In this document: positions 4,907 to 64,000 of the stretch, one piece after another
Layout of the letters: each line of letters begins with the position of its first letter
How positions within the stretch are numbered: position 1 is the stretch's first letter
Source of the DNA: Odiellus spinosus
Taxonomy: Eukaryota; Arthropoda; Arachnida; Opiliones; Phalangiidae
Direction: 5' to 3'
Assembly: GCA_963920705.1 (NCBI GenBank)
Contig: OY987225.1
Location: 15,877,492 to 15,941,491 of the forward strand
DNA: 64,000 nucleotides
The notes under the pieces: generated by a model
What the model was told of the DNA's origin: nothing
Seen by the model: only the letters and a program-made list of their open reading frames with translations
Database searches by the model: none
Made by a program: the position numbers and the translations under genes

Positions 4907-5109
4907 TTCTTTTGCATTCTCTGTATCCTAGAGGTTAAGGGAAAATACTTATACTCCGTAAAGTAGAGAATAATGATTAAATGCACGCTGTTTCCTCTAC
5001 TCATCCAATACTCTACATTTCTTTTCATCTTTTATTTTAGGTAGGGTTAGGTTAGGTTAGATTACCTTAACGGCGGGGGCGGGGAGGTTATATTTTGGAT
5101 TAAGGTATG

Positions 5110-5126
5110 GCCTCCGTGGCGCAATT

Positions 5127-5165
<39 letters not shown>

Positions 5166-5182
5166 GAGCCCACCCGGGGGCG
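5110..5182 (+). tRNA. tRNA-Asn: tRNA-Asn(GTT), first unit of array A
   Basis: Acceptor GCCTCCG pairs with CGGGGGC, discriminator G. The anticodon stem TTCGG/CCGAA encloses CTGTTAA. The D loop is AATTGTTA, so one of the two conserved D-loop guanines is lost, which may weaken the D-loop/T-loop contact. No intron. It starts the array 14 bp after the truncated family-2 element. Confidence 0.75.
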
Positions 5183-5845
5183 GCCGGCCATATTTTCTTT
5201 TCAAATTCTTTGAAATTTTCCAACAGGATAATTTAAGGTGCAAAGTTAAGATGTGCACAATGGTTAGCGCGTTCGGCTGTTTACCAAAAGGTTGGTGGTT
5301 CGAGCCCACCCGGGGGCGCCTGGCGATATCTTCTTTTCAAATTCATTGAAATTTTCCTTCAGGATAATTTAAGGCGCAGTACTTAAACATGAGCTCCGTG
5401 GCGCAATGGTTAGCGCATTCGGCTGTTAACCGAAAGGTTGGTGGTTCGAGCCCACCCGGGGGCGCCTACCAATATTTTGATCAAATTAATTGAAATTTTC
5501 CTTCAGGATAATTTAAGGCGCAGAATTAAGATATGGCCTCCATCAGGATAATTTAAGGCGCAAAATTAACATATGGCCTCCGTGGCGCAATGGTTAGAGC
5601 GTTCGGCTGATAACCGAAAAGTTTGTGGTTCAGGGCGCCTACCAATATTTTCATCAAATTAATTGAATTTTTCCATCAGGATAATTTAAGGCGCACAATT
5701 AAGATATGGCCTCCGTGGCGCAATGGTTAGCGCGTTCGGCTGATAAACGAAAGGTTGGTTGTTCGAGCCCACCAAGGGGCGCCTACCAATATTTTCATCA
5801 AATTAATTGAATTTTTCCATCAGGATAATTTAAGGCGCACAATTA

Positions 5846-5868
5846 AGATATGGACTCCGTGACGCAAT

Positions 5869-5908
<40 letters not shown>

Positions 5909-6424
5909 GAGCCCACCGGGGGTGCTAGGCAATTTTTTCTAATTCATTGAAATTTTACATCAGGATAATTTAAGGCGCAGGATTAAGATGTGGCCTCCGT
6001 GGCGCTATGGTTAGCGCGTTCGGCTGTTAAACGAGAGGTTGGTGGTTCGAGCCCACCCGGGGGCGTCTGGCAATTTTTTCTTTTCTAATTCATTGATATT
6101 TTCCACCAGGATAATTTAAGGTGCAAAATTAAGATATGGCCTCCGTGGCGCAATGGTTAGAGCGTTAGGCTGTTAACCGAAAAGTTTGTGGTTCGGGGCG
6201 CCTACCAATATTTTCATCAAATTAATTGAAATTTTCCATCAGGATAATTTAAGGCGCACAAGTAAGCCATGGCCTCCGTGGCGCAATGGTTAGCGCGTTC
6301 GGCTGTTAAACGAAAGGTTGGTGGTTCGAGCCCACCCGGGGGCGTCTGGCAATTTTTTCTTTTCTAATTCATTGATATTTTCCACCAGGATAATTTAAGG
6401 TGCAAAATTAAGCTATGCACAATA

Positions 6425-6463
<39 letters not shown>

Positions 6464-6569
6464 GAGCCCACCCGGGGGCGTCTGGCAATTTTTTCTTTTC
6501 TAATTCATTGAAATTTTCCATCAGGATAATTTAAGGCGCACAATTAAGATATGGACTCCGTGACGCAAT

Positions 6570-6609
<40 letters not shown>

Positions 6610-7125
6610 GAGCCCACCGGGGGTGCTAGGCAATTTTTTCTAATTCATTGAAATTTTACATCAGGATAATTTAAGGCGCAGGATTAAGATGTGGCCTCCG
6701 TGGCGCTATGGTTAGCGCGTTCGGCTGTTAAACGAGAGGTTGGTGGTTCGAGCCCACCCGGGGGCGTCTGGCAATTTTTTCTTTTCTAATTCATTGATAT
6801 TTTCCACCAGGATAATTTAAGGTGCAAAATTAAGATATGGCCTCCGTGGCGCAATGGTTAGAGCGTTAGGCTGTTAACCGAAAAGTTTGTGGTTCGGGGC
6901 GCCTACCAATATTTTCATCAAATTAATTGAAATTTTCCATCAGGATAATTTAAGGCGCACAAGTAAGCCATGGCCTCCGTGGCGCAATGGTTAGCGCGTT
7001 CGGCTGTTAAACGAAAGGTTGGTGGTTCGAGCCCACCCGGGGGCGTCTGGCAATTTTTTCTTTTCTAATTCATTGATATTTTCCACCAGGATAATTTAAG
7101 GTGCAAAATTAAGCTATGCACAATA

Positions 7126-7164
<39 letters not shown>

Positions 7165-7246
7165 GAGCCCACCCGGGGGCGTCTGGCAATTTTTTCTTTT
7201 CTAATTCATTGAAATTTTCCATCAGGATAATTTAAGGTGCAGCATT
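5846..7246 (+). repeat. Tandem ~701-bp duplication inside array A
   Basis: The five-unit block beginning with the GACTCCGTGACGC unit at about 5850 is repeated almost base for base from about 6551. The matched breaks include the CCACCGGGGGTGCTAGG unit, the CACAATAG unit and the AGAGCGTTAGG unit. Boundaries are approximate. Confidence 0.85.
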
Positions 7247-7254
7247 AAGTTATG

Positions 7255-7327
7255 GCCTCCGTGGCGCAATGGTTAGCGCATTCGGCTGTTAACCGAAAGG
7301 TTGGTGGTTCGAGCCCACCCGGGGGCG
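7255..7327 (+). tRNA. tRNA-Asn: tRNA-Asn(GTT), A26 variant
   Basis: All four stems pair. Position 26 between the D and anticodon stems is A instead of G (GCGCATTCGG), the base found at 26 in many other tRNAs. An AATATTTT run follows within 15 nt. Confidence 0.8.
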
Positions 7328-8729
7328 CCTACCAATATTTTGATCAAATTAATTGAAATTTTCCTTCAGGATAATTTAAGGCGCAGAATTAAGATATGGC
7401 CTCCATCAGGATAATTTAAGGCGCAAAATTAACATATGGCCTCCGTGGCCCAATGGTTAGAGCGTTCGGCTGATAACCGAAAAGTTTGTGGTTCAGGGCG
7501 CCTACCAATATTTTCATCAAATTAATTGAAATTTTCCATCAGGATAATTTAAGGTGCACAATTAAGATATGGCCTCCGTGGCGCAATGGTTAGCGCGTTC
7601 GGCTGATAAAGGAAAGGTTGGTTGTTCGAGCCCACCCAGGGGCGCATACCAATATTTTCATCAAATTAATTGAGTTTTTCCATCAGGATGATTTAAGGCG
7701 CACAATTAAGATATGGACTCCGTGACGCAATGGTTACAGCGTTCGGCTGTTTACCGAAAAGTTTGTGGTTCGGGGCGCCTACCAATATTTTCATCAAATT
7801 AATTGAAATTTTCCATCAGGATAATTTAAGGCGCACAATTAAGATATGGCCTCCGTGTCGCAATGGTTAGCGCGTTCGGCTGTTAAACGAAAAGTTGGTG
7901 GTTCGAGCCCACCCGGGGGCGCCTACCAATATTTTCATCAAATTAATTGAAATTTTCCATCAGGATAATTTAAGGCGCACAATTAAGATATGGACTCCGT
8001 GACGCAATGGTTAGAGCGTTCGGCTGTTAACCGAAAAGTTTGTGGTTCGAGCACACCCGGGGGCGCCTACCAATATTTTCATCAAATTCATTGAAATTTT
8101 CCTTCAGGATAATTTGAGGCGCAGTACTTAAACATGGCCTCCGTGGCGCAATGGTAAGCGCATTCGGCTGTTAACCGAAAGGTTGGTGGTTCGAGCCCAC
8201 CCGGGGGCGCCTACCAATATTTTGATCAAATTAATTGAAATTTTCCTTCAGGATAATTTAAGGCGCAGAATTAAGATATGGCCTCCATCAGGATAATTTA
8301 AGGCGCAAAATTAACATATGGCCTCCGTGGCGCAATGGTTAGCGCGTTCGGCTGATAACCGAAAAGTTTGTGGTTCGGGCCCCTACCAATATTTTCATCA
8401 AATTAATTGAAATTTTCCATCAGGATAATTTAAGGCGCACAATTAAGATATGGCCTCCGTGGCGCAATGGTTAGCGCGTTTGGCTGATAAACGAAAGGTT
8501 GGTTGTTCGAGCCCACCCAGGGGCGCCTACCAATATTTTCATCAAATTAATTGAATTTTTCCATCAGGATAATTTAAGGCGCACAATTAAGATATGGACT
8601 CCGTGACGCAATGGTTAGAGCGTTCGGCTGTTTACCGAAAAGTTTGTGGTTCGGGGCGCCTACCAATATTTTCATCAAATTAATTGAAATTTTCCATCAG
8701 GATAATTTAAGGCGCACAATTAACATGTG

Positions 8730-8802
8730 GCCTCCGTGGCGCAATGGTTAGCGCGTTCGGCTGTTAACCGAAAAGTTGGTGGTTCGAGCCCACCCGGGGG
8801 CG
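8730..8802 (+). tRNA. tRNA-Asn: tRNA-Asn(GTT), AAGTT variable loop
   Basis: Fully paired cloverleaf. The variable loop is AAGTT rather than AGGTT. Recurs at 12194 and 39146. Confidence 0.8.
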
Positions 8803-9178
8803 CCTATCAATATTTTCATCAAATTCATTGAAATTTTCCTTCAGGATAATTTGAGGCGCATTACTTAAACATGGCCTCTGTGGCGCAATGGTTAGCGCAT
8901 AACATTCGGCTGTTAATCGAAAGGTTGGTGGTTCGAGCCCACCCGGGGGCGCCTTCCAATATTTTGATCAAATTAATTGAAATTTTCCTTCAGGATAATT
9001 TAAGGCGCAGAATTAAGATATGGCCTCCATCAAGATAATTTTAGGCGCCTCCGTGGCGCAATGGTTAGCGCGTTCGGGTGATAACCGAAAAGTTTGTGGT
9101 TCGGGCCCCTACCAATATTTTCATCAAATTAATTGAAATTTTCCATCAGGATAATTTAAGGCGCACAATTAAGATATG

Positions 9179-9251
9179 GCCTCCGTGGCGCAATGGTTAG
9201 CGCGTTCGGCTGGTAAACGAAAGGTTGGTTGTTCGAGCCCACCCAGGGGCG
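9179..9251 (+). pseudogene. tRNA-Asn-derived unit with GGT (Thr-type) anticodon
   Basis: Anticodon loop CTGGTAA gives GGT. Pair 31-39 is G-A, the T stem has one mismatch (GGTTG) and the acceptor has a C-A, so it is probably a pseudogene. The duplicate at 12643-12715 carries the same anticodon. Confidence 0.6.
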
Positions 9252-9879
9252 CCTACCAATATTTTCATCAAATTAATTGAATTTTTCCATCAGGATAATT
9301 TAAGGCGCACGATTAAGATATGGACTCCGTGACGCAATGGTTAGAGCGTTCGGCTGTTAACCGAAAAGTTTGTGGTTCGGGGCGCCTACCAATATTTTCA
9401 TCAAATTAATTGAAATTTTCCATCAGGATAATTTAAGGCGCACAATTAAGAAATGGCCTCCGTGGCGCAATGGTTAGCGCGTTCGGCTGTTAACCGAGAA
9501 GTTGGTGGTTCGAGCCCACCCGGGGGCGCCTACCAATATTTTCATAAAATTAATTGAAATAATTTAAGGCGCAAAATTAACATATGGCCTCCGTGGCGCA
9601 ATGGTTAGAGCGTTCGGCTGATAACCGAAAAGTTTGTGGTTCGGGGCGCCTACCAATATTTTCATCAAATTAATTGAAATTTTCCATCAGGATAATTTAA
9701 GGCGCACAATTAAGATATGGCCTCCGTGGCGCAATGGTTAGCGCGTTCGGCTGATAAACGAAAGGTTGGTTGTTCGAGCCCACCAAGGGGCGCCTACCAA
9801 TATTTTCATCAAATTAATTGAATTTTTCCATCAGGATAATTTAAGGCGCACAATTAATATATGGACTCCGTGACGCAAT

Positions 9880-9919
<40 letters not shown>

Positions 9920-10583
9920 GAGCCCACCGGGGGTGCTAGGCAATTTTTTCTAATTCATTGAAATTTTCCATCAGGATAATTTAAGGCGCAGGATTAAGAT
10001 ATGGACACCGTGACGCAATGGTTAGCGCGTTCGGCTGTTAAACGAGAGGTTGGTGGTTCGAGCCCACCCGGGGGCGCCTATCAATATTTTCATCAAATTA
10101 ATTGAAATTTTCCATCAGGATAATTTAAGGCGCGCAATTAAGATATGGCCTCCGTGGCGCAATGGTTAGAGCGTTCGGCTGTTAACCGAAAAGTTTGTGG
10201 TTCGGGGCGCCTACCAATATTTTCATCAAATTAATTGAAATTTTCCATCAGGATAATTTAAGGCGCAAAACTAAGATATGGCCTCCGTGGCGCAATGGTT
10301 AGCGCGTTCGGCTGTTAAACAAAAGGTTGGTGGTTCGAGCCCACCCGGGGCGCCTACCAATATTTTCATCAAATTAATTGAAATTTTCCATCAGGATAAT
10401 TTAAGGCGCACAATTAAGATATGGCCTCCGTGGCGCAATGGTTAGCGCGTTCGGCTGATAAACGAAAGGTTGGTTGTTCGAGCCCACCAAGGGGCGCCTA
10501 CCAATATTTTCATCAAATTAATTGAATTTTTCCATCAGGATAATTTAAGGCGCACAATTAATATATGGACTCCGTGACGCAAT

Positions 10584-10623
<40 letters not shown>

Positions 10624-11272
10624 GAGCCCACCGGGGGTGCTAGGCAATTTTTTCTAATTCATTGAAATTTTCCATCAGGATAATTTAAGGCGCAGGATTA
10701 AGATATGGACACCGTGACGCAATGGTTAGCGCGTTCGGCTGTTAAACGAGAGGTTGGTGGTTCGAGCCCACCCGGGGGCGCCTATCAATATTTTCATCAA
10801 ATTAATTGAAATTTTCCATCAGGATAATTTAAGGCGCGCAATTAACATATGGCCTCCGTGGCGCAATGGTTAGAGCGTTCGGCTGTTAACCGAAAAGTTT
10901 GTGGTTCGGGGCGCCTACCAATATTTTCATCAAATTAATTGAAATTTTCCATCAGGATAATTTAAGGCGCAAAACTAAGATATGGCCTCCGTGGCGCAAT
11001 GGTTAGCGCGTTCGGCTGTTAAACAAAAGGTTGGTGGTTCGAGCCCACCCGGGGCGCCTACCAAAATTCTCATCAAATTAATTGAATTTTTCCATCAGGA
11101 TAATTTAAGGCGCACAATTAAGATATGGACTCCGTAACGCAATGGTTAGCGCGTTCGGCTGTTAAACGAAAGATTGGTGGTTCGAGCCCACCGGGGGCGC
11201 TAGGCAATTTTTTCTTTTCTAATTTATTGAAATTTTCCATCAGGATAATTTAAGGCGCAGGATTAAGATATG

Positions 11273-11288
11273 GCCTCCGTGGCGCAAT

Positions 11289-11328
<40 letters not shown>

Positions 11329-11345
11329 GAGCCCACCCGGGGGCG
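11273..11345 (+). tRNA. tRNA-Asn: tRNA-Asn(GTT), canonical
   Basis: Consensus unit: every stem pairs (acceptor U4-G69 wobble), loop CTGTTAA, variable loop AGGTT, T loop TTCGAGC, discriminator G, no intron. D loop AATGGTTA has 8 nt. The downstream T-run is AATATTTTG. Confidence 0.88.
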
Positions 11346-12193
11346 CCTACCAATATTTTGATCAAATTAATTGAAATTTTCCTTCAGGATAATTTAAGGC
11401 GCAGAATTAAGATATGGCCTCCATCAGGATAATTTAAGGCGCAAAATTAACATATGGCCTCCGTGGCGCAATGGTTAGCGCGTTCGGCTGTTAACCGAAA
11501 AGTTTGTGGTTCGAGCACACCCGGGGGCGCCTACCAATATTTTCATCAAATTCATTGAAATTTTCCTTCAGGATAATTTGAGGCGCAGTACTTAAACATG
11601 GCCTCCGTGGCGCAATGGTAAGCGCATTCGGCTGTTAACCGAAAGGTTGGTGGTTCGAGCCCACCCGGGGGCGCCTACCAATATTTTGATCAAATTAATT
11701 GAAATTTTCCTTCAGGATAATTTAAGGCGCAGAATTAAGATATGGCCTCCATCAGGATAATTTAAGGCGCAAAATTAACATATGGCCTCCGTGGCGCAAT
11801 GGTTAGCGCGTTCGGCTGATAACCGAAAAGTTTGTGGTTCGGGCCCCTACCAATATTTTCATCAAATTAATTGAAATTTTCCATCAGGATAATTTAAGGC
11901 GCACAATTAAGATATGGCCTCCGTGGCGCAATGGTTAGCGCGTTTGGCTGATAAACGAAAGGTTGGTTGTTCGAGCCCACCCAGGGGCGCCTACCAATAT
12001 TTTCATCAAATTAATTGAATTTTTCCATCAGGATAATTTAAGGCGCACAATTAAGATATGGACTCCGTGACGCAATGGTTAGAGCGTTCGGCTGTTTACC
12101 GAAAAGTTTGTGGTTCGGGGCGCCTACCAATATTTTCATCAAATTAATTGAAATTTTCCATCAGGATAATTTAAGGCGCACAATTAACATATG

Positions 12194-12266
12194 GCCTCCG
12201 TGGCGCAATGGTTAGCGCGTTCGGCTGTTAACCGAAAAGTTGGTGGTTCGAGCCCACCCGGGGGCG
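12194..12266 (+). tRNA. tRNA-Asn: tRNA-Asn(GTT), AAGTT variable loop
   Basis: Duplicate of the unit at 8730 (offset 3464), still fully paired. Confidence 0.8.
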
Positions 12267-12642
12267 CCTATCAATATTTTCATCAAATTCATTGAAATTT
12301 TCCTTCAGGATAATTTGAGGCGCATTACTTAAACATGGCCTCTGTGGCGCAATGGTTAGCGCATAACATTCGGCTGTTAATCGAAAGGTTGGTGGTTCGA
12401 GCCCACCCGGGGGCGCCTTCCAATATTTTGATCAAATTAATTGAAATTTTCCTTCAGGATAATTTAAGGCGCAGAATTAAGATATGGCCTCCATCAAGAT
12501 AATTTTAGGCGCCTCCGTGGCGCAATGGTTAGCGCGTTCGGGTGATAACCGAAAAGTTTGAGGTTCGGGCCCCTACCAATATTTTCATCAAATTAATTGA
12601 AATTTTCCATCAGGATAATTTAAGGCGCACAATTAAGATATG

Positions 12643-12715
12643 GCCTCCGTGGCGCAATGGTTAGCGCGTTCGGCTGGTAAACGAAAGGTTGGTTGTTCGA
12701 GCCCACCCAGGGGCG
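12643..12715 (+). pseudogene. tRNA-Asn-derived unit with GGT anticodon, duplicate
   Basis: Identical defects to 9179-9251; present only because of the 3464-bp duplication. Confidence 0.6.
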
Positions 12716-13343
12716 CCTACCAATATTTTCATCAAATTAATTGAATTTTTCCATCAGGATAATTTAAGGCGCACGATTAAGATATGGACTCCGTGACGCA
12801 ATGGTTAGAGCGTTCGGCTGTTAACCGAAAAGTTTGTGGTTCGGGGCGCCTACCAATATTTTCATCAAATTAATTGAAATTTTCCATCAGGATAATTTAA
12901 GGCGCACAATTAAGAAATGGCCTCCGTGGCGCAATGGTTAGCGCGTTCGGCTGTTAACCGAGAAGTTGGTGGTTCGAGCCCACCCGGGGGCGCCTACCAA
13001 TATTTTCATCAAATTAATTGAAATAATTTAAGGCGCAAAATTAACATATGGCCTCCGTGGCGCAATGGTTAGAGCGTTCGGCTGATAACCGAAAAGTTTG
13101 TGGTTCGGGGCGCCTACCAATATTTTCATCAAATTAATTGAAATTTTCCATCAGGATAATTTAAGGCGCACAATTAAGCTATGGCCTCCGTGGCGCAATG
13201 GTTAGCGCGTTCGGCTGATAAACGAAAGGTTGGTTGTTCGAGCCCACCAAGGGGCGCCTACCAATATTTTCATCAAATTAATTGAATTTTTCCATCAGGA
13301 TAATTTAAGGCGCACAATTAATATATGGACTCCGTGACGCAAT

Positions 13344-13383
<40 letters not shown>

Positions 13384-14032
13384 GAGCCCACCGGGGGTGC
13401 TAGGCAATTTTTTCTAATTCATTGAAATTTTCCATCAGGATAATTTAAGGCGCAGGATTAAGATATGGACACCGTGACGCAATGGTTAGCGCGTTCGGCT
13501 GTTAAACGAGAGGTTGGTGGTTCGAGCCCACCCGGGGGCGCCTATCAATATTTTCATCAAATTAATTGAAATTTTCCATCAGGATAATTTAAGGCGCGCA
13601 ATTAAGATATGGCCTCCGTGGCGCAATGGTTAGAGCGTTCGGCTGTTAACCGAAAAGTTTGTGGTTCGGGGCGCCTACCAATATTTTCATCAAATTAATT
13701 GAAATTTTCCATCAGGATAATTTAAGGCGCAAAACTAAGATATGGCCTCCGTGGCGCAATGGTTAGCGCGTTCGGCTGTTAAACAAAAGGTTGGTGGTTC
13801 GAGCCCACCCGGGGCGCCTACCAAAATTCTCATCAAATTAATTGAATTTTTCCATCAGGATAATTTAAGGCGCACAATTAAGATATGGACTCCGTAACGC
13901 AATGGTTAGCGCGTTCGGTTGTTAAACGAAAGATTGGTGGTTCGAGCCCACCGGGGGCGCTAGGCAATTTTTTCTTTTCTAATTTATTGAAATTTTCCAT
14001 CAGGATAATTTAAGGCGCAGGATTAAGATATG

Positions 14033-14048
14033 GCCTCCGTGGCGCAAT

Positions 14049-14088
<40 letters not shown>

Positions 14089-14105
14089 GAGCCCACCCGG
14101 GGGCG
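14033..14105 (+). tRNA. tRNA-Asn: tRNA-Asn(GTT), canonical
   Basis: Matches the consensus at every position. Duplicate at 22295. Confidence 0.88.
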
Positions 14106-14421: not shown

Positions 14422-14567
14422 ATTGGCAATATCTTCCTTTCAAATTCATTGAAATTATCCACCAGAATAATTTAAGGCGCAAAATTAACACGTGCCTGGC
14501 GATAGTTTCTTTTCAAATTCTTTGAAATTTTCCCTCAGGATAATTTAAGGCGCTGTATTTTGATATG

Positions 14568-15275: not shown

Positions 15276-15291
15276 GCCTCCGTGGCGCAAT

Positions 15292-54449: not shown

Positions 54450-55259
54450 ATGGGAGACGAAGATATTAGTAAAGAGGAATTAAGAAAGCGTAAAGCTAGA
54501 GAGAGAATGAGAGAACGCAGAGCTGATCCAGAATATCGTAGGAGAGAATGTGAAAGAAGGAAAGATTTAGCGGCCCAAAAGAAAGTCATTGTGTCCGGTA
54601 CTAAAATAACTGTTACTCCGACTGAAGTGATCTTATCACGCGCTATTGCTAGGCAAGATAATTACAAAGTACCGCCATCTACCAATGTAGTTTAAAGCAA
54701 TACTGAAGTGGTAGGAATACAGGTAATGGAGGGTTTTATAACTTCTTCAAAGGATGAAAATCAACCTTCCACCTCTAACTCAGAACCGAGGGTCAACAAT
54801 AGTGCAGTTTCGCTAGCGAAAAAAAATTCGCGCAAAGACGCAGAATATACAGAAGTAGAACGTGCTAGAAAAAGGCTAGCCATGGCTGATAAACGCCAAG
54901 AGGTAAGATATACAGAAGCAGAACGGGCTAGAAGTCAGTTGGCAATGGCTGATAAACGCCAAGATGTAGGATATACTGAAGCAGAACGTGCTAGAAATCA
55001 GTTAGCGATGGGTTTTAAACGCCAAGAGGTAGAATATACAGAAGCCGAACGTGCTAGAAATCAGTCGGCGATGGCTTTTAGACGCCAAGAGGTAGAATAT
55101 ACAGAAGCCGAACGTGCTAGAAATCAGTCGGCGAAGGCTTTTAGACGCCAAGAGGTAGAATATGCTGAAGCCGAACGTGCTAGAAATCAGGTTCGGTTAG
55201 TACTCGGGGAGGTACCATTTTGGGTTTTCCCAACTTGTTTGTTTTTTCTCTTTACGTAA
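54450..55259 (+). pseudogene. Arg/Glu-rich repeat protein fragment with one in-frame stop
   Basis: ATG at 54450 sits in a good context (AAAAAATGGG). The frame runs 81 codons to a TAA at 54693-54695 and then continues in the same frame. The first part is highly charged (RKRKARERMRERRADPEYRR). After a Ser-rich linker come five 21-residue repeats of the type YTEAERARNQLAMADKRQEV and a partial sixth. Translation then runs through the element's 3' terminus, so the true C-terminus is missing. Such charged EAERAR-type repeats are predicted coiled-coil/helical and resemble N-terminal regions of some arthropod transposon or DNA-binding repeat proteins. Captured host gene or vestige of the element's own protein: undecided. 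Confidence 0.5.
54846..55190. repeat. 63-bp coding tandem repeat, 5 full units plus a partial
   Basis: Units start at 54846 and every 63 bp to 55161, each beginning TATACAGAAG or a close variant (TATGCTGAAG in the last). Units 3-5 are most alike, suggesting local unequal exchange. Confidence 0.9.
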
Positions 55260-55429
55260 TCATATGTAAATTTAAATTTTTTGACAAGTGATTATAACCT
55301 GGTAATCTTTCTAATCTTACTACTAAAACAAATATTAATTGTTAGGATGTAAAATAAGCCGCTCACCCGAAACAAGCTAAGCTTAGTGGGTGGGCGAGAT
55401 ATGCAATGTAATTTGGAATTGTTGATATA

Positions 55430-55473
<44 letters not shown>
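55238..55473 (+). mobile_element. LINE 3' UTR and poly(A) tail
   Basis: After the HINE-like element the LINE 3' UTR resumes (TTTGTTTTTTCTCTTTACG) and ends in about 37 As at 55437-55473. The tail abuts the satellite at ATGGTTAGCGCG. The whole 49730-55473 stretch is thus a 5'-truncated retrotransposon copy placed in the tRNA satellite and later hit by other elements. Confidence 0.7.
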
Positions 55474-55507
<34 letters not shown>

Positions 55508-55606
55508 TGGGGTTAGAGCCCACCCGGTGGCGGCTGGCAATATTTTCTTTTCAAATTCATTGATATTTTCCATTAGAATAATTTTAAGGCGCAGTATTTA
55601 GACATG

Positions 55607-55679
55607 GCCTCCGTCGCGCAATTGTTAGCGCCTTCGGCTGTTAACCGAAAGGTTGGTGGTTCGAGCCCACCCGGGGGCG
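55607..55679 (+). tRNA. tRNA-Asn: tRNA-Asn(GTT), C9/C26 variant
   Basis: Stems closed; position 9 is C, D loop AATTGTTA, position 26 C. Confidence 0.65.
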
Positions 55680-55770
55680 TCTAGCAATTTTTTATTTTCT
55701 AATTCATTGAAATTTTCCATCAGGATAATTTAAGGCGCAGGATTACGATATGGCCTCCGTGGCGCAATGT

Positions 55771-55808
<38 letters not shown>

Positions 55809-56090
55809 GAGCCCATCCTGGGGCGCATGGCGATATTTTCTTTTCAAATTCATTAAAATTTTTCTTCTAGATAATTTTAGGTGCTGAGTTAAGATATGAC
55901 CTCCGTGGCGCAATGGCTGTTTACCAAAAGGCGCAAAATTAAGATATGCCGTTGTGCACAATGGTAAGCGCGTTCAGCTGTTTAGCAAAAGGTTGGTGGT
56001 TCGAGCCTACCCGGAGGCGTCTGGAGATAATTTCTTTTCAAATTCATTGAAATTTCCATCAGGATAATTTAGGCGCTGCATCAAGGTATG

Positions 56091-56106
56091 GCCTCCGTGG
56101 CGCAAT

Positions 56107-56146
<40 letters not shown>

Positions 56147-56163
56147 GAGCCCACCCGGGGGCG
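56091..56163 (+). tRNA. tRNA-Asn: tRNA-Asn(GTT), canonical
   Basis: Consensus; upstream spacer ends GCTGCATCAAGGTATG, a private variant also before 56766 and 57498. Confidence 0.88.
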
Positions 56164-56338
56164 TCTGGCAAGTTTTTCTTTTCTAATTCATTGAAATTTT
56201 CCACCAGGATAATTTAAGGCGCAAATTTAAGAGGTGGCCAATAGTTAGCGCGTTCGGCTGTTTACCAAAAGTTTGGTTGTTCGAGCCCACCCGGGGGCGC
56301 CTGGCAATATTTTCTTTAAGGCGCAGTATTTAGACATG

Positions 56339-56411
56339 GCCTCCGTGGCGCAATGGTTAGCGCCTTCGGCTGTTAACCGAAAGGTTGGTGGTTCGAGCCC
56401 ACCCGGGGGCG
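56339..56411 (+). tRNA. tRNA-Asn: tRNA-Asn(GTT), C26 variant
   Basis: All stems paired; GCGCC at the D/anticodon junction. Confidence 0.78.
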
Positions 56412-56765
56412 TCTAGCAATTTTTTATTTTCTAATTCATTGAAATTTTCCATCAGGATAATTTAAGGCGCATGATTAAGATATGGCCTCCGTGGCGCAAT
56501 GGTTAGCGCGTTAGGCTGTTAAACGAAAGGTTGGTGGTTCGAGCCCACCCGGGGGCGTCTGGCAATTTTTTCTTTTCTAATTCATTGATATTTTCCACCA
56601 GGATAATTTAAGGTGCAAAATTAAGCTATGCACAATGGTTAGCGCGTTCGGCTGTTTACCAAAAGGTTGGTGGTTCGAGCCCACCCGGGGGCGCCTGGCG
56701 ATATCTTCTTTTCAAATTCATTGAAATTTTCCTTCAGGATAATTTAGGCGCTGCATCAAGGTATG

Positions 56766-56781
56766 GCCTCCGTGGCGCAAT

Positions 56782-56821
<40 letters not shown>

Positions 56822-56838
56822 GAGCCCACCCGGGGGCG
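56766..56838 (+). tRNA. tRNA-Asn: tRNA-Asn(GTT), canonical
   Basis: Consensus at all positions. Confidence 0.88.
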
Positions 56839-57013
56839 TCTGGCAAGTTTTTCTTTTCTAATTCATTGAAATTTTCCACCAGGATAATTTAAGGCGCAAA
56901 TTTAAGAGGTGGCCAATAGTTAGCGCGTTCGGCTGTTTACCAAAAGTTTGGTTGTTCGAGCCCACCCGGGGGCGCCTGGCAATATTTTCTTTAAGGCGCA
57001 GTATTTAGACATG

Positions 57014-57086
57014 GCCTCCGTGGCGCAATTGTTAGCGCCTTCGGCTGTTAACCGAAAGGTTGGTGGTTCGAGCCCACCCGGGGGCG
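57014..57086 (+). tRNA. tRNA-Asn: tRNA-Asn(GTT), T18/C26 variant
   Basis: Stems paired; D loop AATTGTTA. Duplicate of 55607 except that position 9 is the normal G. Confidence 0.7.
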
Positions 57087-57177
57087 TCTAGCAATTTTTT
57101 ATTTTCTAATTCATTGAAATTTTCCATCAGGATAATTTAAGGCGCAGGATTACGATATGGCCTCCGTGGCGCAATGT

Positions 57178-57215
<38 letters not shown>

Positions 57216-57497
57216 GAGCCCATCCTGGGGCGCATGGCGATATTTTCTTTTCAAATTCATTAAAATTTTTCTTCTAGATAATTTTAGGTGCTGAGTTAAG
57301 ATATGACCTCCGTGGCGCAATGGCTGTTTACCAAAAGGCGCAAAATTAAGATATGCCGTTGTGCACAATGGTAAGCGCGTTCAGCTGTTTAGCAAAAGGT
57401 TGGTGGTTCGAGCCTACCCGGAGGCGTCTGGAGATAATTTCTTTTCAAATTCATTGAAATTTCCATCAGGATAATTTAGGCGCTGCATCAAGGTATG

Positions 57498-57513
57498 GCC
57501 TCCGTGGCGCAAT

Positions 57514-57553
<40 letters not shown>

Positions 57554-57570
57554 GAGCCCACCCGGGGGCG
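57498..57570 (+). tRNA. tRNA-Asn: tRNA-Asn(GTT), canonical
   Basis: Duplicate of 56091 (offset 1407), unchanged. Confidence 0.88.
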
Positions 57571-57745
57571 TCTGGCAAGTTTTTCTTTTCTAATTCATTG
57601 AAATTTTCCACCATGATAATTTAAGGCGCAAATTTAAGAGGTGGCCAATAGTTAGCGCGTTCGGCTGTTTACCAAAAGTTTGGTTGTTCGAGCCCACCCG
57701 GGGGCGCCTGGCAATATTTTCTTTAAGGCGCAGTATTTAGACATG

Positions 57746-57818
57746 GCCTCCGTGGCGCAATGGTTAGCGCCTTCGGCTGTTAACCGAAAGGTTGGTGGTT
57801 CGAGCCCACCCGGGGGCG
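57746..57818 (+). tRNA. tRNA-Asn: tRNA-Asn(GTT), C26 variant
   Basis: Duplicate of 56339 (offset 1407). Confidence 0.78.
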
Positions 57819-58173
57819 TCTAGCAATTTTTTATTTTCTAATTCATTGAAATTTTCCATCAGGATAATTTAAGGCGCATGATTAAGATATGGCCTCCGTG
57901 GCGCAATGGTTAGCGCGTTAGGCTGTTAAACGAAAGGTTGGTGGTTCGAGCCCACCCGGGGGCGTCTGGCAATTTTTTCTTTTCTAATTCATTGATATTT
58001 TCCACCAGGATAATTTAAGGTGCAAAATTAAGCTATGCACAATGGTTAGCGCGTTCGGCTGTTTACCAAAAGGTTGGTGGTTCGAGCCCACCCGGGGGCG
58101 CCTGGCGATATCTTCTTTTCAAATTCATTGAAATTTTCCTTCAGGATAATTTAAGTCGCGGTATTCAAATATG

Positions 58174-58189
58174 GCCTCCGTGGCGCAAT

Positions 58190-58229
<40 letters not shown>

Positions 58230-58246
58230 GAGCCCACCCGGGGGCG
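58174..58246 (+). tRNA. tRNA-Asn: tRNA-Asn(GTT), canonical
   Basis: Consensus; spacer after it reads CCATTATTTTAATC. Confidence 0.88.
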
Positions 58247-58454
58247 CCTACCATTATTTTAATCAAATTAATTGAAATTTTCCACCAGAATAATTTAAGG
58301 CGCAAAATTAAGATGTGCGCAATGGTTAGCGCGTTCGGCTTTTTACCAAAAGTTTGGTTGTTCGAGCCCTCCCGGGGGCGCCTGGCAATATTTTCTTTTC
58401 AAATTCATTGATATTTTCCATTAGAATAATTTTAAGGCGCAGTATTTAGACATG

Positions 58455-58527
58455 GCCTCCGTGGCGCAATTGTTAGCGCCTTCGGCTGTTAACCGAAAGG
58501 TTGGTGGTTCGAGCCCACCCGGGGGCG
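58455..58527 (+). tRNA. tRNA-Asn: tRNA-Asn(GTT), T18/C26 variant
   Basis: Stems paired, D loop AATTGTTA. Confidence 0.7.
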
Positions 58528-58600
58528 TCTAGCAATTTTTTATTTTCTAATTCATTGAAATTTTCCATCAGGATAATTTAAGGCGCAGGATTACGATATG

Positions 58601-58616
58601 GCCTCCGTGGCGCAAT

Positions 58617-58656
<40 letters not shown>

Positions 58657-58673
58657 GAGCCCACCCGGGGGCG
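58601..58673 (+). tRNA. tRNA-Asn: tRNA-Asn(GTT), canonical
   Basis: Consensus; TATTTTCTTTTC follows. Confidence 0.88.
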
Positions 58674-58882
58674 GCTGGCCATATTTTCTTTTCAAATTCA
58701 TTGAAATTTTCCATCAGGATAATTTAGGGCGCAAAATTAAGATGTGCACCATGGTTAGCGCGTTCGGCTGTTTAGTGAAAGGATGGTGGTTCGAGCCCAC
58801 CCGGGGGCGTCTGGATATAATTTATTTTCAAATTCATTGAAATTTTCCATCAGGATAATTTAAGGCGCAGGATTAAGATACA

Positions 58883-58955
58883 GCCTCCGTGGCGCAATGG
58901 TTAGCGCGTTCGGCTGTCAACCGAAAGGTTGGTGGTTCGAGCCCACCCGGGAGCA
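58883..58955 (+). pseudogene. tRNA-Asn body with GTC (Asp-type) anticodon
   Basis: Loop CTGTCAA gives GTC. D, anticodon and T stems are paired; the acceptor has one C3-A70 mismatch (CGGGAGC) and the discriminator is A. Duplicate at 62169. Confidence 0.6.
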
Positions 58956-59309
58956 GCTGGCCATATTTTCTTTTCAAATTCATTGAAATTTTCCATCAGG
59001 ATAATTTAAGGCGCAAAATTAAGATGTGCGCAATGGTTAGCGCGTTCGGCTGTTTACCAAAAGTTTGGTTGTTCGAGCCCACCCGGGGACGCATGGCAAT
59101 ATTTTCTTTTCAAATTCATTGATATTTTCCATCAGGATAATTTTAAGGCGCAAAATTAAGATATGCCCTAGTGCACAATGGTTAGCGCGTTCGGCTGTTT
59201 AGTGAAAGGATGGTGGTTCGACCCCACCCGGGGGCGTCTGGATATAATTTATTTTCAAATTCATTGAAATTTTCCATCAGGATAATTTAAGTCGCAGAAT
59301 GAAAATATG

Positions 59310-59325
59310 GCCTCCGTGGCGCAAT

Positions 59326-59365
<40 letters not shown>

Positions 59366-59382
59366 GAGCCCACCCGGGGGCG
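59310..59382 (+). tRNA. tRNA-Asn: tRNA-Asn(GTT), canonical
   Basis: Consensus; the following T-run is short (TAGTTCCTTTTC). Confidence 0.85.
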
Positions 59383-59471
59383 GCTGGCAATAGTTCCTTT
59401 TCAAATTCATAGAAATTTTGAGTCAGGATAATTTAAGGCGCAGAATTAAGCCATGGCCTCCGTGTCGCAAT

Positions 59472-59502
<31 letters not shown>

Positions 59503-59908
59503 AGGTGGTTCGAGTCCACCCGTGGGCGCCTTGCATTATTTTCTTTTCAAATTCATAGAAATTTTGCATCAGGATAATTTAAGGCGCAGAATTTAGAAAT
59601 GGACTCCCTTGCGAAAGGTTGGTGGTTCGAGCCCACCCGGGGGCGCCTACAAATATTTTCATCAAATTAATTGAAATTTTCCATCAGGATAATTTAAGGC
59701 GCAGAATTAAGATATGGCCTCCATCAGGATGATTTAAGGCGCAAAAATAAGAAATGGCCTCCGTGGCGCAATGGTTAGCGCGTTCAGCTGTTAGCCGAAA
59801 GGTTGGTGGTTCGGGGACGCCTACCAATATTTTCATCAAATTAATTGAAATTTACCATCAGGATAATTTAAGGCGCACAATTAAGATATGGCCTCCGTTG
59901 CGCACTAT

Positions 59909-59946
<38 letters not shown>

Positions 59947-60211
59947 GAGCACACCCAGGGGCGGCTGGGAATTTTTTCTTTTCAAATTCATTGAAATTTT
60001 CCACCAGGATAATTTAAGGCGCAAAGTTAATATGTGCACAATGGTTAGCGCGTTCGGCTGTTTACCAAAAGGTTGGTGGTTCGAGTACACCCGGGGCGCC
60101 AGGCAATTTTTTCTTTTCTAATTCATTGAAATTTTCCACCAGGATAATTTAATGCGCAAAATTAAGATATGGCCTCCATCAGGATAATTTAAGGCGCAAA
60201 ACCAAGATATG

Positions 60212-60284
60212 GCCTCCGTGGCGCAATGGTTAGTGCGTTCGGCTGATAACCGAAAGTTTGGTGGTTCGAGCCCACCCGGGGGCG
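60212..60284 (+). tRNA. tRNA-Asn body with GAT anticodon, array E
   Basis: CTGATAA loop, D stem with one wobble (GCGC/GTGC), variable loop AGTTT, T stem and acceptor fully paired, discriminator G, TATTTTCTTTTC after it. Its flanks and substitutions differ from the 14568 family, so a second independent GAT lineage keeps a closed cloverleaf. Confidence 0.65.
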
Positions 60285-60576
60285 GCTTGCAATATTTTCT
60301 TTTCAAATTCATTGAAATTTTCCATCAGGATAATTTTAGGCGCAAAATTAAGATGTGCACCATAGTTAGCGCGTTCGGCTGTTTAGCAAAAGGTTGGTGG
60401 TTCGAGCCCACCCGGGGGCGTCTGGCAATAATTTCTTTAAAAATTCATTGAAATTTCCATCAGGATAATTTAGGGCGCTGGATCAAGAAAGGTTGGTGGT
60501 TCGAGCCTACCAATGTTTTCATCAAATTAATTGAAATTTTCCATCAGGATAATTTAAGGCGCACAGTTAAGATATG

Positions 60577-60649
60577 GCCTCCGTGGTGCAATGGTTAGCG
60601 CGTTTGGCTGTAAACCGAAAGGTTAGTGGTTCGAGCCCACCCGGGGGCG
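60577..60649 (+). pseudogene. tRNA-Asn body with GTA (Tyr-type) anticodon
   Basis: Loop CTGTAAA gives GTA; anticodon stem TTTGG/CCGAA keeps pairing through a wobble. The T stem has A49-C65. No intron, unlike most eukaryotic tRNA-Tyr genes. Duplicate at 63863. Confidence 0.55.
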
Positions 60650-60895
60650 CCTACAAATATTTTCATCAAATTAATTGAAATTTTCCATCAGGATAATTTA
60701 AGGCGCAGATTTAAGATATGGCCTCCATCAGGATAATTTAAGGCGCACAGTTAAGATATGGCCTCCGTGGCGCAATGGTTAGCGCGTTTGGCTGTTAACA
60801 GAAAGGTTGGTGGTTTCGGGGGCGCCTACCAATATTTTCATCAAATTAATAGAAATTTTCCATCAGGATAATTTAAGGCGCAGGATTAAGATATG

Positions 60896-60911
60896 GCCTC
60901 CGTGGCGCAAT

Positions 60912-60951
<40 letters not shown>

Positions 60952-60968
60952 GAGCCCACCCGGGGGCG
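60896..60968 (+). tRNA. tRNA-Asn: tRNA-Asn(GTT), canonical
   Basis: Consensus; the next unit at 61042 is its immediate 146-bp duplicate, spacer included. Confidence 0.88.
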
Positions 60969-61041
60969 GCTGGCCATGTTTTCTTTTCAAATTCATTGAA
61001 ATTTTCCACCAGGATAATTTAAGGCGCAGGATTAAGATATG

Positions 61042-61057
61042 GCCTCCGTGGCGCAAT

Positions 61058-61097
<40 letters not shown>

Positions 61098-61114
61098 GAG
61101 CCCACCCGGGGGCG
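61042..61114 (+). tRNA. tRNA-Asn: tRNA-Asn(GTT), canonical
   Basis: Consensus; adjacent duplicate of 60896. Confidence 0.88.
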
Positions 61115-61459
61115 GCTGGCCATGTTTTCTTTTCAAATTCATTGAAATTTTCCACCAGGATAATTTAAGGCGCAAAGTTAAGATGTGCACAATGGTTAGC
61201 GCGTTCGGCTGTTTACCAAAAGGTTGGTGGTTCGAGCCCACCCGGGGGCGCCTGGCAATTTTTTCTTTTCTAATTCATTGATATTTTCCACCAGGATAAT
61301 TTAAGGTGCAAAATTAAGCTATGCACAATGGTTAGCGCGTTCGGCTGTTTACCAAAAGGTTGGTGGTTCGAGCCCACCCGGGGGCGCCTGGCGATATCTT
61401 CTTTTCAAATTCATTGAAATTTTCCTTCAGGATAATTTAAGTCGCGGTATTCAAATATG

Positions 61460-61475
61460 GCCTCCGTGGCGCAAT

Positions 61476-61515
<40 letters not shown>

Positions 61516-61532
61516 GAGCCCACCCGGGGGCG
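61460..61532 (+). tRNA. tRNA-Asn: tRNA-Asn(GTT), canonical
   Basis: Duplicate of 58174 (offset 3286). Confidence 0.88.
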
Positions 61533-61740
61533 CCTACCATTATTTTAATCAAATTAATTGAAATTTTCCACCAGAATAATTTAAGGCGCAAAATTAAGAT
61601 GTGCGCAATGGTTAGCGCGTTCGGCTTTTTACCAAAAGTTTGGTCGTTCGAGCCCTCCCGGGGGCGCCTGGCAATATTTTCTTTTCAAATTCATTGATAT
61701 TTTCCATTAGAATAATTTCAAGGCGCAGTATTTAGACATG

Positions 61741-61813
61741 GCCTCCGTGGCGCAATTGTTAGCGCCTTCGGCTGTTAACCGAAAGGTTGGTGGTTCGAGC
61801 CCACCCGGGGGCG
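61741..61813 (+). tRNA. tRNA-Asn: tRNA-Asn(GTT), T18/C26 variant
   Basis: Duplicate of 58455. Confidence 0.7.
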
Positions 61814-61886
61814 TCTAGCAATTTTTTATTTTCTAATTCATTGAAATTTTCCATCAGGATAATTTAAGGCGCAGGATTACGATATG

Positions 61887-61902
61887 GCCTCCGTGGCGCA
61901 AT

Positions 61903-61942
<40 letters not shown>

Positions 61943-61959
61943 GAGCCCACCCGGGGGCG
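61887..61959 (+). tRNA. tRNA-Asn: tRNA-Asn(GTT), canonical
   Basis: Duplicate of 58601. Confidence 0.88.
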
Positions 61960-62168
61960 GCTGGCCATATTTTCTTTTCAAATTCATTGAAATTTTCCAT
62001 CAGGATAATTTAGGGCGCAAAATTAAGATGTGCACCATGGTTAGCGCGTTCGGCTGTTTAGTGAAAGGATGGTGGTTCGAGCCCACCCGGGGGCGTCTGG
62101 ATATAATTTATTTTCAAATTCATTGAAATTTTCCATCAGGATAATTTAAGGCGCAGGATTAAGATACA

Positions 62169-62241
62169 GCCTCCGTGGCGCAATGGTTAGCGCGTTCGGC
62201 TGTCAACCGAAAGGTTGGTGGTTCGAGCCCACCCGGGAGCA
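62169..62241 (+). pseudogene. tRNA-Asn body with GTC anticodon, duplicate
   Basis: Duplicate of 58883 with the same acceptor mismatch. Confidence 0.6.
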
Positions 62242-62595
62242 GCTGGCCATATTTTCTTTTCAAATTCATTGAAATTTTCCATCAGGATAATTTAAGGCGC
62301 AAAATTAAGATGTGCGCAATGGTTAGCGCGTTCGGCTGTTTACCAAAAGTTTGGTTGTTCGAGCCCACCCGGGGACGCATGGCAATATTTTCTTTTCAAA
62401 TTCATTGATATTTTCCATCAGGATAATTTTAAGGCGCAAAATTAAGATATGCCCTAGTGCACAATGGTTAGCGCGTTCGGCTGTTTAGTGAAAGGATGGT
62501 GGTTCGACCCCACCCGGGGGCGTCTGGATATAATTTATTTTCAAATTCATTGAAATTTTCCATCAGGATAATTTAAGTCGCAGAATGAAAATATG

Positions 62596-62611
62596 GCCTC
62601 CGTGGCGCAAT

Positions 62612-62651
<40 letters not shown>

Positions 62652-62668
62652 GAGCCCACCCGGGGGCG
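62596..62668 (+). tRNA. tRNA-Asn: tRNA-Asn(GTT), canonical
   Basis: Duplicate of 59310. Confidence 0.85.
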
Positions 62669-62757
62669 GCTGGCAATAGTTCCTTTTCAAATTCATAGAA
62701 ATTTTGAGTCAGGATAATTTAAGGCGCAGAATTAAGCCATGGCCTCCGTGTCGCAAT

Positions 62758-62788
<31 letters not shown>

Positions 62789-63194
62789 AGGTGGTTCGAG
62801 TCCACCCGTGTTCGCCTTGCATTATTTTCTTTTCAAATTCATAGAAATTTTGCATCAGGATAATTTAAGGCGCAGAATTTAGAAATGGACTCCCTTGCGA
62901 AAGGTTGGTGGTTCGAGCCCACCCGGGGGCGCCTACAAATATTTTCATCAAATTAATTGAAATTTTCCATCAGGATAATTTAAGGCGCAGAATTAAGATA
63001 TGGCCTCCATCAGGATGATTTAAGGCGCAAAAATAAGAAATGGCCTCCGTGGCGCAATGGTTAGCGCGTTCAGCTGTTAGCCGAAAGGTTGGTGGTTCGG
63101 GGACGCCTACCAATATTTTCATCAAATTAATTGAAATTTTCCATCAGGATAATTTAAGGCGCACAATTAAGATATGGCCTCCGTTGCGCACTAT

Positions 63195-63232
<38 letters not shown>

Positions 63233-63497
63233 GAGCACACCCAGGGGCGGCTGGGAATTTTTTCTTTTCAAATTCATTGAAATTTTCCACCAGGATAATT
63301 TAAGGCGCAAAGTTAATATGTGCACAATGGTTAGCGCGTTCGGCTGTTTACCAAAAGGTTGGTGGTTCGAGTACACCCGGGGCGCCAGGCAATTTTTTCT
63401 TTTCTAATTCATTGAAATTTTCCACCAGGATAATTTAATGCGCAAAATTAAGATATGGCCTCCATCAGGATAATTTAAGGCGCAAAACCAAGATATG

Positions 63498-63570
63498 GCC
63501 TCCGTGGCGCAATGGTTAGTGCGTTCGGCTGATAACCGAAAGTTTGGTGGTTCGAGCCCACCCGGGGGCG
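63498..63570 (+). tRNA. tRNA-Asn body with GAT anticodon, duplicate in array E
   Basis: Duplicate of 60212; unchanged cloverleaf. Confidence 0.65.
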
Positions 63571-63862
63571 GCTTGCAATATTTTCTTTTCAAATTCATTG
63601 AAATTTTCCATCAGGATAATTTTAGGCGCAAAATTAAGATGTGCACCATAGTTAGCGCGTTCGGCTGTTTAGCAAAAGGTTGGTGGTTCGAGCCCACCCG
63701 GGGGCGTCTGGCAATAATTTCTTTAAAAATTCATTGAAATTTCCATCAGGATAATTTAGGGCGCTGGATCAAGAAAGGTTGGTGGTTCGAGCCTACCAAT
63801 GTTTTCATCAAATTAATTGAAATTTTCCATCAGGATAATTTAAGGCGCACAGTTAAGATATG

Positions 63863-63935
63863 GCCTCCGTGGTGCAATGGTTAGCGCGTTTGGCTGTAAA
63901 CCGAAAGGTTAGTGGTTCGAGCCCACCCGGGGGCG
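63863..63935 (+). pseudogene. tRNA-Asn body with GTA anticodon, duplicate
   Basis: Duplicate of 60577. Confidence 0.55.
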
Positions 63936-64000
63936 CCTACAAATATTTTCATCAAATTAATTGAAATTTTCCATCAGGATAATTTAAGGCGCAGATTTAA

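Follow-up and report, generated by a model that had tools for sequence, protein, structure and literature searches.

Tandem arrays of tRNA genes have been described in a protist, in a plant and in animals, and the closest of these systems are given here from excerpts of the published accounts. In Entamoeba, almost all of the tRNA genes lie in arrays with up to 5 tRNA genes per unit, and the Pro(TGG) array is of a single isotype; in E. histolytica and E. dispar, complex short tandem repeats separate the tRNA genes of the arrays, and in the excerpted text the authors find no clear evidence of pseudogenes (Tawari et al., PMC2652664). Maize carries a 91.95-kb tRNA satellite array, tRNASAT_ZM, on chr4L (PMC10335936). 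The human tRNA variable number tandem repeat at 1q23.3 has a 7.3-kb unit, present in 9-43 units, of which tRNA genes make up <6% (Darrow & Chadwick, PMC4041453). Nematostella and teleosts have tDNA clusters of at least 50 tRNA genes in which most pairs are parallel; the clusters of Nematostella and zebrafish are mostly isotype-heterogeneous, pseudogenes are common in some species, and same-isotype pairs predominate in drosophilids, whose clusters are small (Bermudez-Santana et al., PMC2888827). In this study, we analyze a window of 64,000 nt from the arachnid Odiellus spinosus (assembly GCA_963920705.1, contig OY987225.1, hereafter C1:15,877,492-15,941,491), in which a tRNA-Asn(GTT) gene and a short spacer are repeated head to tail. 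This array and others of the same genome are the known kind, tandem tRNA arrays, in a new form.

As far as the excerpts allow a comparison, each described system resembles the present case in part. As in Entamoeba, long head-to-tail tRNA arrays occur at several places with dispersed genes alongside, and we also count as shared the retrotransposons that often flank the Entamoeba arrays and the concerted evolution proposed for them. However, Entamoeba is a protist whose units usually contain several tRNA genes, with Pro(TGG) as an exception, whereas the genome studied here is of the animal type, most of its Asn copies are pseudogenes, and one tRNA per unit was found both in the Asn array and in the Ala, Cys and Lys stretches that were read. 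The maize array is likewise of satellite scale, named for a tRNA and located at one chromosomal site, but it is the one array named in the excerpts on this plant, whereas here several isotypes are arrayed and the Asn locus covers 217 kb and both strands. The human repeat also contains tRNA genes in tandem, and copy-number instability is a feature of the human case; here, the unit has 144 bp, half of it tRNA, and there are about 1,070 tRNA cores. The Nematostella and teleost clusters are similarly large, mostly parallel and, in some species, accompanied by pseudogenes; unlike those of Nematostella and zebrafish, the present arrays combine one isotype with a fixed spacer over tens or hundreds of kb. 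Among the records listed in searches of the open-licence full-text literature, which leaves out most subscription papers, we found no account of such a set of one-isotype tRNA arrays in an animal.

We consider, with a probability of roughly 0.7, that the Asn locus is a birth-and-death array of tRNA-Asn genes, amplified by the exchange of multi-unit blocks, and that most of its copies have become pseudogenes; the genome would be one in which one-isotype tRNA satellites form again and again.

The tRNA-Asn locus

Of the 156 tRNA-like genes that ARAGORN identified in the window, every one lies on the forward strand and most are Asn(GTT). In Rfam, 214 matches reach the cut-off, and among the matches listed (150 of the 214) all are tRNA on the same strand. 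The arrays reported by Tandem Repeats Finder have a period of 144/146 bp and multiples thereof. A spacer anchor occurs 319 times on the forward strand, including one stray match at 46600 inside an insertion, versus once on the reverse strand (≤5 mismatches), and a 34-base tRNA core occurs 288 times on the forward strand and 0 times on the reverse strand (≤8 mismatches). Cutting the window between anchors yields 313 units, of which 269 measure 100-160 bp and represent 160 distinct sequences. The consensus unit of 144 bp consists of a complete 73-nt tRNA-Asn(GTT), which accounts for half of it, and a 71-bp spacer without a microsatellite; a 146-bp sister form and stereotyped forms of 132, 133, 136 and 140 bp are also present.

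The units are arranged in five forward-strand blocks that sum to 42,441 bp. The first block (5107..15497) holds 11 structurally intact genes, 3 of them exact copies of the canonical gene, and is followed by a second block with 4 intact genes (18211..23759), by the longest block, with 7 (26473..43603), and by a short block with 1 (48497..49728). The fifth block (55475..64000) is the richest of the window, with 16 intact genes, 11 of them exact, and continues beyond it. Examples of the 17 exact consensus copies of the window are the canonical 73-nt genes at 11273..11345 and 61042..61114, both on the forward strand. An earlier note on this DNA had described approximately 43 kb of about 300 units of ~139 bp, all on one strand and interrupted solely by later insertions. 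The anchor and core scans agree with this description, and insertions were found between the blocks; the unit size was about right, although the consensus is actually 144 bp. The start at 5107 is due solely to mobile-element sequence, which occupies most of the preceding stretch. Farther left it resumes, in a block that ends at window position -882.

The window belongs to a locus of 217 kb, C1:15,778,251-15,995,327 (window positions -99,240 to +117,836), which contains approximately 165 kb of array. In the whole genome (443 Mb in 286 contigs, C1 having 35.4 Mb), the spacer anchor has 576 forward and 644 reverse matches at ≤2 mismatches, and a reversed-pattern control has 3 and 5. The 260 kb around the window give 576 and 644 matches at the same threshold, all within C1:15,778,397-15,995,345. 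Because the two counts are equal (1,220), all of the anchor matches lie in one locus. The locus comprises 24 blocks of at least two anchors with 12 strand switches (≤5 mismatches), and with 519 forward and 551 reverse tRNA cores, both strands are about equally used. Therefore, the single orientation claimed in the earlier note applies to the window but not to the locus. As in a satellite, short units are repeated head to tail over a long distance at one place (1,306 inter-anchor units, 164,791 bp), and 752 of the 1,040 locus units of at least 100 bp are distinct.

A copy was classified as structurally intact if it had all 21 stem pairs, an A box, a B box, a GTT anticodon and a T-run within 40 nt. 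The test was applied to ungapped copies found with at most 12 substitutions, 188 in the window and 719 in the locus, which include some units with a 5′ deletion. Ungapped tRNA copies with at most 12 changes are present in 183 of the 313 window units; the others lack the T arm and keep the 5′ part (77), lack the 5′ part (13), are short pieces (34) or are of other kinds (6). One type of T-arm-deleted unit is present in 11 exact copies in the window. All stem pairs are retained in 46 of the 188 ungapped window copies, the A box in 98, the B box in 169 and the T-run in 186, and every requirement is satisfied by 39 copies, which represent 13 distinct sequences. In the locus, 155 of the 719 copies are structurally intact, and 84 are exact canonical copies. 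Thus, genes with an A box, a B box and a terminator, as in a functional array, are found alongside stereotyped deleted forms, and the mixture of intact genes and stereotyped pseudogenes reported in the earlier note is borne out. Shifted anticodons were also observed among the 188 window copies (26 GAT, for example at 5709, 4 GCT, 2 each of GGT, GTC and GTA, and 1 ATT), and GAT is present in 39 of the 719 locus copies.

A 29-base tRNA-Asn core has 315 matches in the genome (129 + 186) and 309 in the 260-kb region (127 + 182); therefore, six matches lie elsewhere. Three of the six were located, two on C11 and one on C12, and they are intact single genes with unrelated flanks. These dispersed genes have 74 nt, with a D loop that is one base longer than that of the array type. 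The region contains 0 copies of the 74-nt type and 524 (243 + 281) of the 73-nt type. Therefore, judging from the sequences, the array would most simply descend from a single tRNA-Asn gene with the shorter, 8-nt D loop.

Within the window, long self-matches show the array to have been amplified by many units at a time. Two forward-strand segments, 13051..20553 and 21314..28795, were recovered as a self-match at an offset of 8,263 bp and are 99.07% identical over 7,503 bp. Each consists of array, an insertion and array again. The insertion of the first copy (T1, 15498..18210) resembles a mobile element; it opens with ACCTCCCCGA and carries TCGGGGAGGT close to the opposite end, its limits having been set by eye. 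The insertion of the second copy (T2, 23760..26472) is 99.45% identical to it, the aligned copies being 15495-18235 and 23757-26489. Because the insertion is in both copies, the simplest order is insertion first and segmental duplication later, and T2 would then most simply have been carried along with T1. Homogenisation in the window is greatest over 27924..36836 (forward strand), where self-matches are nested, with the best offsets at 697, 1,526 and 5,131 bp (92.4-93.0%). This core of 8.9 kb is without a structurally intact tRNA gene, the list of intact genes passing directly from 27496 to 37714. Over the locus, the mean identity is 0.897 for neighbouring units and 0.889 for random units (300 sampled pairs each). 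Neighbours that are barely closer than random units are expected if multi-unit blocks, and not single units, are copied. Moreover, identical monomers return at multi-unit periods, and further self-matches of 1-3 kb are present. Multi-unit and segmental amplification of this sort, of which the duplication at the 8,263-bp offset is an example, is known from satellites, and we infer that the array grew by unequal exchange or conversion of multi-unit blocks. In the right part of the locus, an inverted duplication of 2,079 bp with 99.6% identity (C1:15,951,736-15,953,813 and 15,981,254-15,983,332) lies beside many strand flips.

Other one-isotype arrays in the genome

The earlier note had presented the array as an unusual satellite. 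Its satellite scale and single isotype stand, but the array is not alone, since the genome has several of this kind, whose units measure roughly 140-165 bp in most cases. Starting points were taken from a tRNA family search of the genome, in which 63 candidates were scored. On C17, a tRNA-Ala array starts at 8,319,826 and continues to 8,338,950 or beyond, with 121 start sites and 118 of 120 spacings between 157 and 161 bp; ARAGORN called 119 of its 120 genes Ala(CGC/TGC) and one Leu. In a Cys(GCA) array on C16, all 38 genes called over 6 kb are of this isotype, and the unit has 154 bp. Lys(TTT) is arrayed on C4, where 7 kb with a 148-bp unit contain 47 Lys genes among 48 (the other was called Thr), and on C5, where all 20 genes over 3 kb are Lys and the unit has 149 bp; the spacer of the latter is unlike that of the former. 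Thirteen further places that were read comprise six Lys array stretches or Ala groups, one Cys pair and six single genes, and additional Ala-type spacers were located by pattern only on C17 at 3.82 Mb, on C33 and on C47.

For Glu, Gly, Phe and Val, tRNA sequences were used as probes, and the putative clusters are defined by probe matches. Glu-like clusters occur on C3 (13.94 Mb; 7 matches at 151-bp steps) and on C8 (13.20-13.26 Mb; 41 matches over 58 kb, at steps of 140 bp and multiples). The Gly probe has at least 189 matches over at least 33 kb at C2:32.79-32.83 Mb, with steps of 164 and 193 bp. The Phe probe has at least 287 matches, which among the matches listed lie mainly on C274, with a step of 155 bp. 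Val-like matches are concentrated on C18 (5.6-6.3 Mb; 49 of 54 matches over 0.65 Mb), and their 141-150 bp steps apply to close neighbours only. The Glu-like and Val-like matches are partial and 85-94% identical; those of Gly and Phe, among the matches listed, are 93-100% identical. U6, a Pol III (RNA polymerase III) gene searched for comparison, has five matches in the genome.

The spacers of the Asn, Ala, Cys, Lys-C4 and Lys-C5 arrays were compared as consensus sequences, and 8 of the 10 pairs align no better than shuffles. The Cys spacer aligns with each of the Lys spacers slightly above the shuffles (11 and 10 of 300 reach the score), an excess that is unconvincing given ten tests. The two Lys spacers resemble each other no more than shuffles do; therefore, this isotype has apparently formed an array on two occasions, on C4 and on C5. 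What puzzles most about the set is that arrays whose spacers are unrelated have similar unit lengths; the spacing of nucleosomes or the length of the piece that was duplicated first could each account for it. In the spacer consensuses, ACGT stands directly before the tRNA start (Ala and Cys) or one base before it (Lys-C4), and this motif could be an upstream element for Pol III or a product of chance. At the contig ends, C1 has TCAGG/TTAGG runs in both orientations near its start, which are suggestive of an arthropod, and C17 begins with a tandem repeat of approximately 20 bp.

Conservation of the tRNA was expressed as the ratio of tRNA to spacer diversity, calculated from distinct units only with a column bootstrap; because the units are related, the bracketed intervals are too narrow. 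The ratio is 0.82 [0.53-1.31] for Asn units of the window, 0.62 [0.45-0.86] for the Asn locus and 0.48 [0.35-0.66] for its full-length units, and it is 0.26 [0.13-0.48] for Cys, 0.32 [0.20-0.52] for Lys-C4, 0.37 [0.18-0.70] for Lys-C5 and 0.43 [0.23-0.83] for Ala-C17. Other settings of the unit search give 0.28 for Ala-C17 and 0.72 and 0.49 for the forward and reverse Asn units. The window is indistinguishable from neutral, the Cys and Lys-C4 arrays are clearly constrained, and the Asn locus lies between them, several of the intervals overlapping. Relative to the Asn window, the tRNA is better conserved in each of the other main arrays tested (Cys, Lys-C4, Lys-C5 and Ala-C17), where it would seem to be under stronger selection.

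Insertions and flanking sequence

The remaining insertions of the window are compound. The one at 43604..48496 combines an (AGGAG)n run with sequence that recurs at 3994-5098 (86%) and with an element whose inverted ends measure 211 bp (96%). At its edge, AGGAG is repeated 65 times (43603-43927), starting inside a tRNA unit. The insertion at 49729..55474 resembles a retroelement by eye, ends in A40 and contains nested sequence related to T1 and T2; its 196-aa frame has no match in Pfam. It also includes a 91-bp minisatellite of 8.3 copies (50200-50991) and a 63-bp coding-type tandem repeat (54831-55191) that reads RQEVEYTEAERARNQ and variants. Before the array, a reverse-strand open frame of 424 residues (649-1923) has a weak match to HTH_Tnp_4 (E 1.8e-5, below the cut-off), and in the mobile element that holds it, the segment 393-939 has an inverted copy of 547 bp at 2063-2609. 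Among five flanking frames searched in Pfam, one has HTH_Tnp_4 and Cornifin matches, both below the cut-off, and four have no match.

Explanations for the array

According to the birth-and-death explanation that we prefer, one tRNA-Asn(GTT) gene of the 8-nt D-loop type and approximately 71 bp of its flank would have been amplified at a single site on the chromosome-size contig C1. Through unequal exchange and through conversion, both acting on multi-unit blocks, it would have grown to the satellite-like locus of 217 kb, which would have been inverted repeatedly and repeatedly invaded by mobile elements. A minority of the copies, represented by the 155 of 719 ungapped copies that are intact, probably still contribute to the tRNA-Asn pool, and the remaining copies would be pseudogenes, many of them stereotyped, spread by the same exchange. 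More generally, arrays may arise repeatedly from single genes, with the tRNA under selection while it is useful and the array otherwise drifting into a satellite. The Asn locus would be far along this route, yet it has kept its intact genes. Pol III genes may act as replication fork barriers and in this way promote the instability of such arrays.

Several observations weigh against this explanation. The full-length Asn units of the locus are constrained (0.48), so the locus is not simply dead; their interval shares part of its range with that of each of the four other arrays, and the interval of the window overlaps those of Ala and Lys-C5. The scattered Ala set (C223 and C17 at 0.19 Mb) has a ratio of 0.64, which is no better than that of the Asn locus. 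In a count on the tree of the window units, tRNA and spacer, with 2.7 and 4.0 changes per site, do not differ significantly (p = 0.12), and the diversity ratio fails to separate full units from deleted units (0.65 vs 0.77; 0.62 vs 0.53). Furthermore, the habit of forming arrays is not universal, since three Arg(TCG) genes, two Lys genes and one Thr(TGT) gene are single within the 2.2 kb read, and mild clustering is not confined to tRNA, since three of the 5 genome matches of U6, which is also a Pol III gene, lie within 8.1 kb on C18.

The earlier note had suggested that the array might be a gene reservoir, a chromatin barrier, an obstacle to replication forks or a centromeric or heterochromatic satellite. 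The constraint on full-length units, 0.48 [0.35-0.66] across the locus, is what would be expected if the array were kept as a dosage reservoir, that is, for its many tRNA-Asn genes, with most copies expressed. The 155 intact copies in the array compared with three confirmed dispersed genes, as well as the good conservation of the four other arrays, also point in this direction. However, 564 of the 719 ungapped copies fail the test of stems, boxes, anticodon and terminator, and the T-arm-deleted units are not even among the 719. In addition, the most homogenised core of the window holds no intact gene, and copies with a shifted anticodon (39 GAT of 719) have been amplified as well, as have the units that lack the T arm (77 of the 313 window units). 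We therefore regard a reservoir of mostly expressed genes as unlikely, though it is the strongest competitor.

The arrays might instead be structural satellites that form pericentromeric or boundary chromatin, in which case a unit close to nucleosome length and the Pol III boxes would be what is selected. The similar steps of the arrays are consistent with this proposal (Asn 144/146, Lys 148 and 149, Cys 154 and Ala 159/160 bp and, by probe, 151 for the Glu-like cluster of C3, 140 and multiples for that of C8, 155 for Phe, 141-150 for the Val-like matches and 164, also 193, for Gly), and six arrays (on C1, C3, C4, C5, C16 and C17) are situated at 38-61% along their contig. However, the central position was noticed post hoc, and other groups are not central, namely Ala on C12 at 15% and the Ala sites at 0.19 and 3.82 Mb of C17, a contig of 13.7 Mb. 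Moreover, the better arrays conserve the tRNA and not the spacer. A structural role consequently appears doubtful, and more so than the reservoir.

Two technical or trivial origins have very little in their favour. Such repeats are difficult to assemble, and it is the assembled sequence alone that was examined; nevertheless, a repeat wrongly multiplied by the assembler is most improbable, as 752 of 1,040 units are distinct, the duplicated blocks differ by approximately 1% and the insertion inside them by 0.5%, and insertions and strand flips provide landmarks within a contig of 35.4 Mb. A tRNA-derived short interspersed element (SINE) that merely clusters here, which the earlier note had named as a possible refutation, would share the tRNA head and the internal Pol III boxes, but it is scarcely credible after the genome-wide search, in which 1,220 of 1,220 anchor matches in 443 Mb fall in one 217-kb locus, no more than 6 of the 315 exact tRNA-core matches are found elsewhere, the three located being single genes with unrelated flanks, and the consensus unit has no A-tail and abuts the next unit, so that no target-site duplication is visible.

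Foreign sources were also considered and rejected. No viral contig matches the anchor exactly, and 257 billion bases of prokaryotic contigs contain a single exact match, which is approximately the chance expectation; ARAGORN finds no tRNA in the stretch around it. A piece of the unit has matches of 80-90% in five phage records, four at annotated tRNA genes and one without annotation. The tRNA-carrying long terminal repeat (LTR) elements Helenus and Ajax, as described in the excerpts available, were set aside as a source, as the unit has no LTR anatomy.

A far-reaching extension is that the whole tRNA gene set has been turned into chromosome-specific one-isotype satellites, with units close to nucleosome length, that double as pericentromeric or boundary chromatin, the Asn array being already structural. 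We consider this a long shot; if it were true, translation genes and chromosome architecture would evolve as one system. The separate one-isotype arrays, with similar unit lengths and with spacers that are unrelated where compared, constitute a natural replicate experiment on the formation, function and decay of arrays. They make it possible to address, within one species, whether Pol III genes seed satellites as fork barriers, whether array copy number determines the tRNA pool, and whether decayed arrays serve as structural chromatin.

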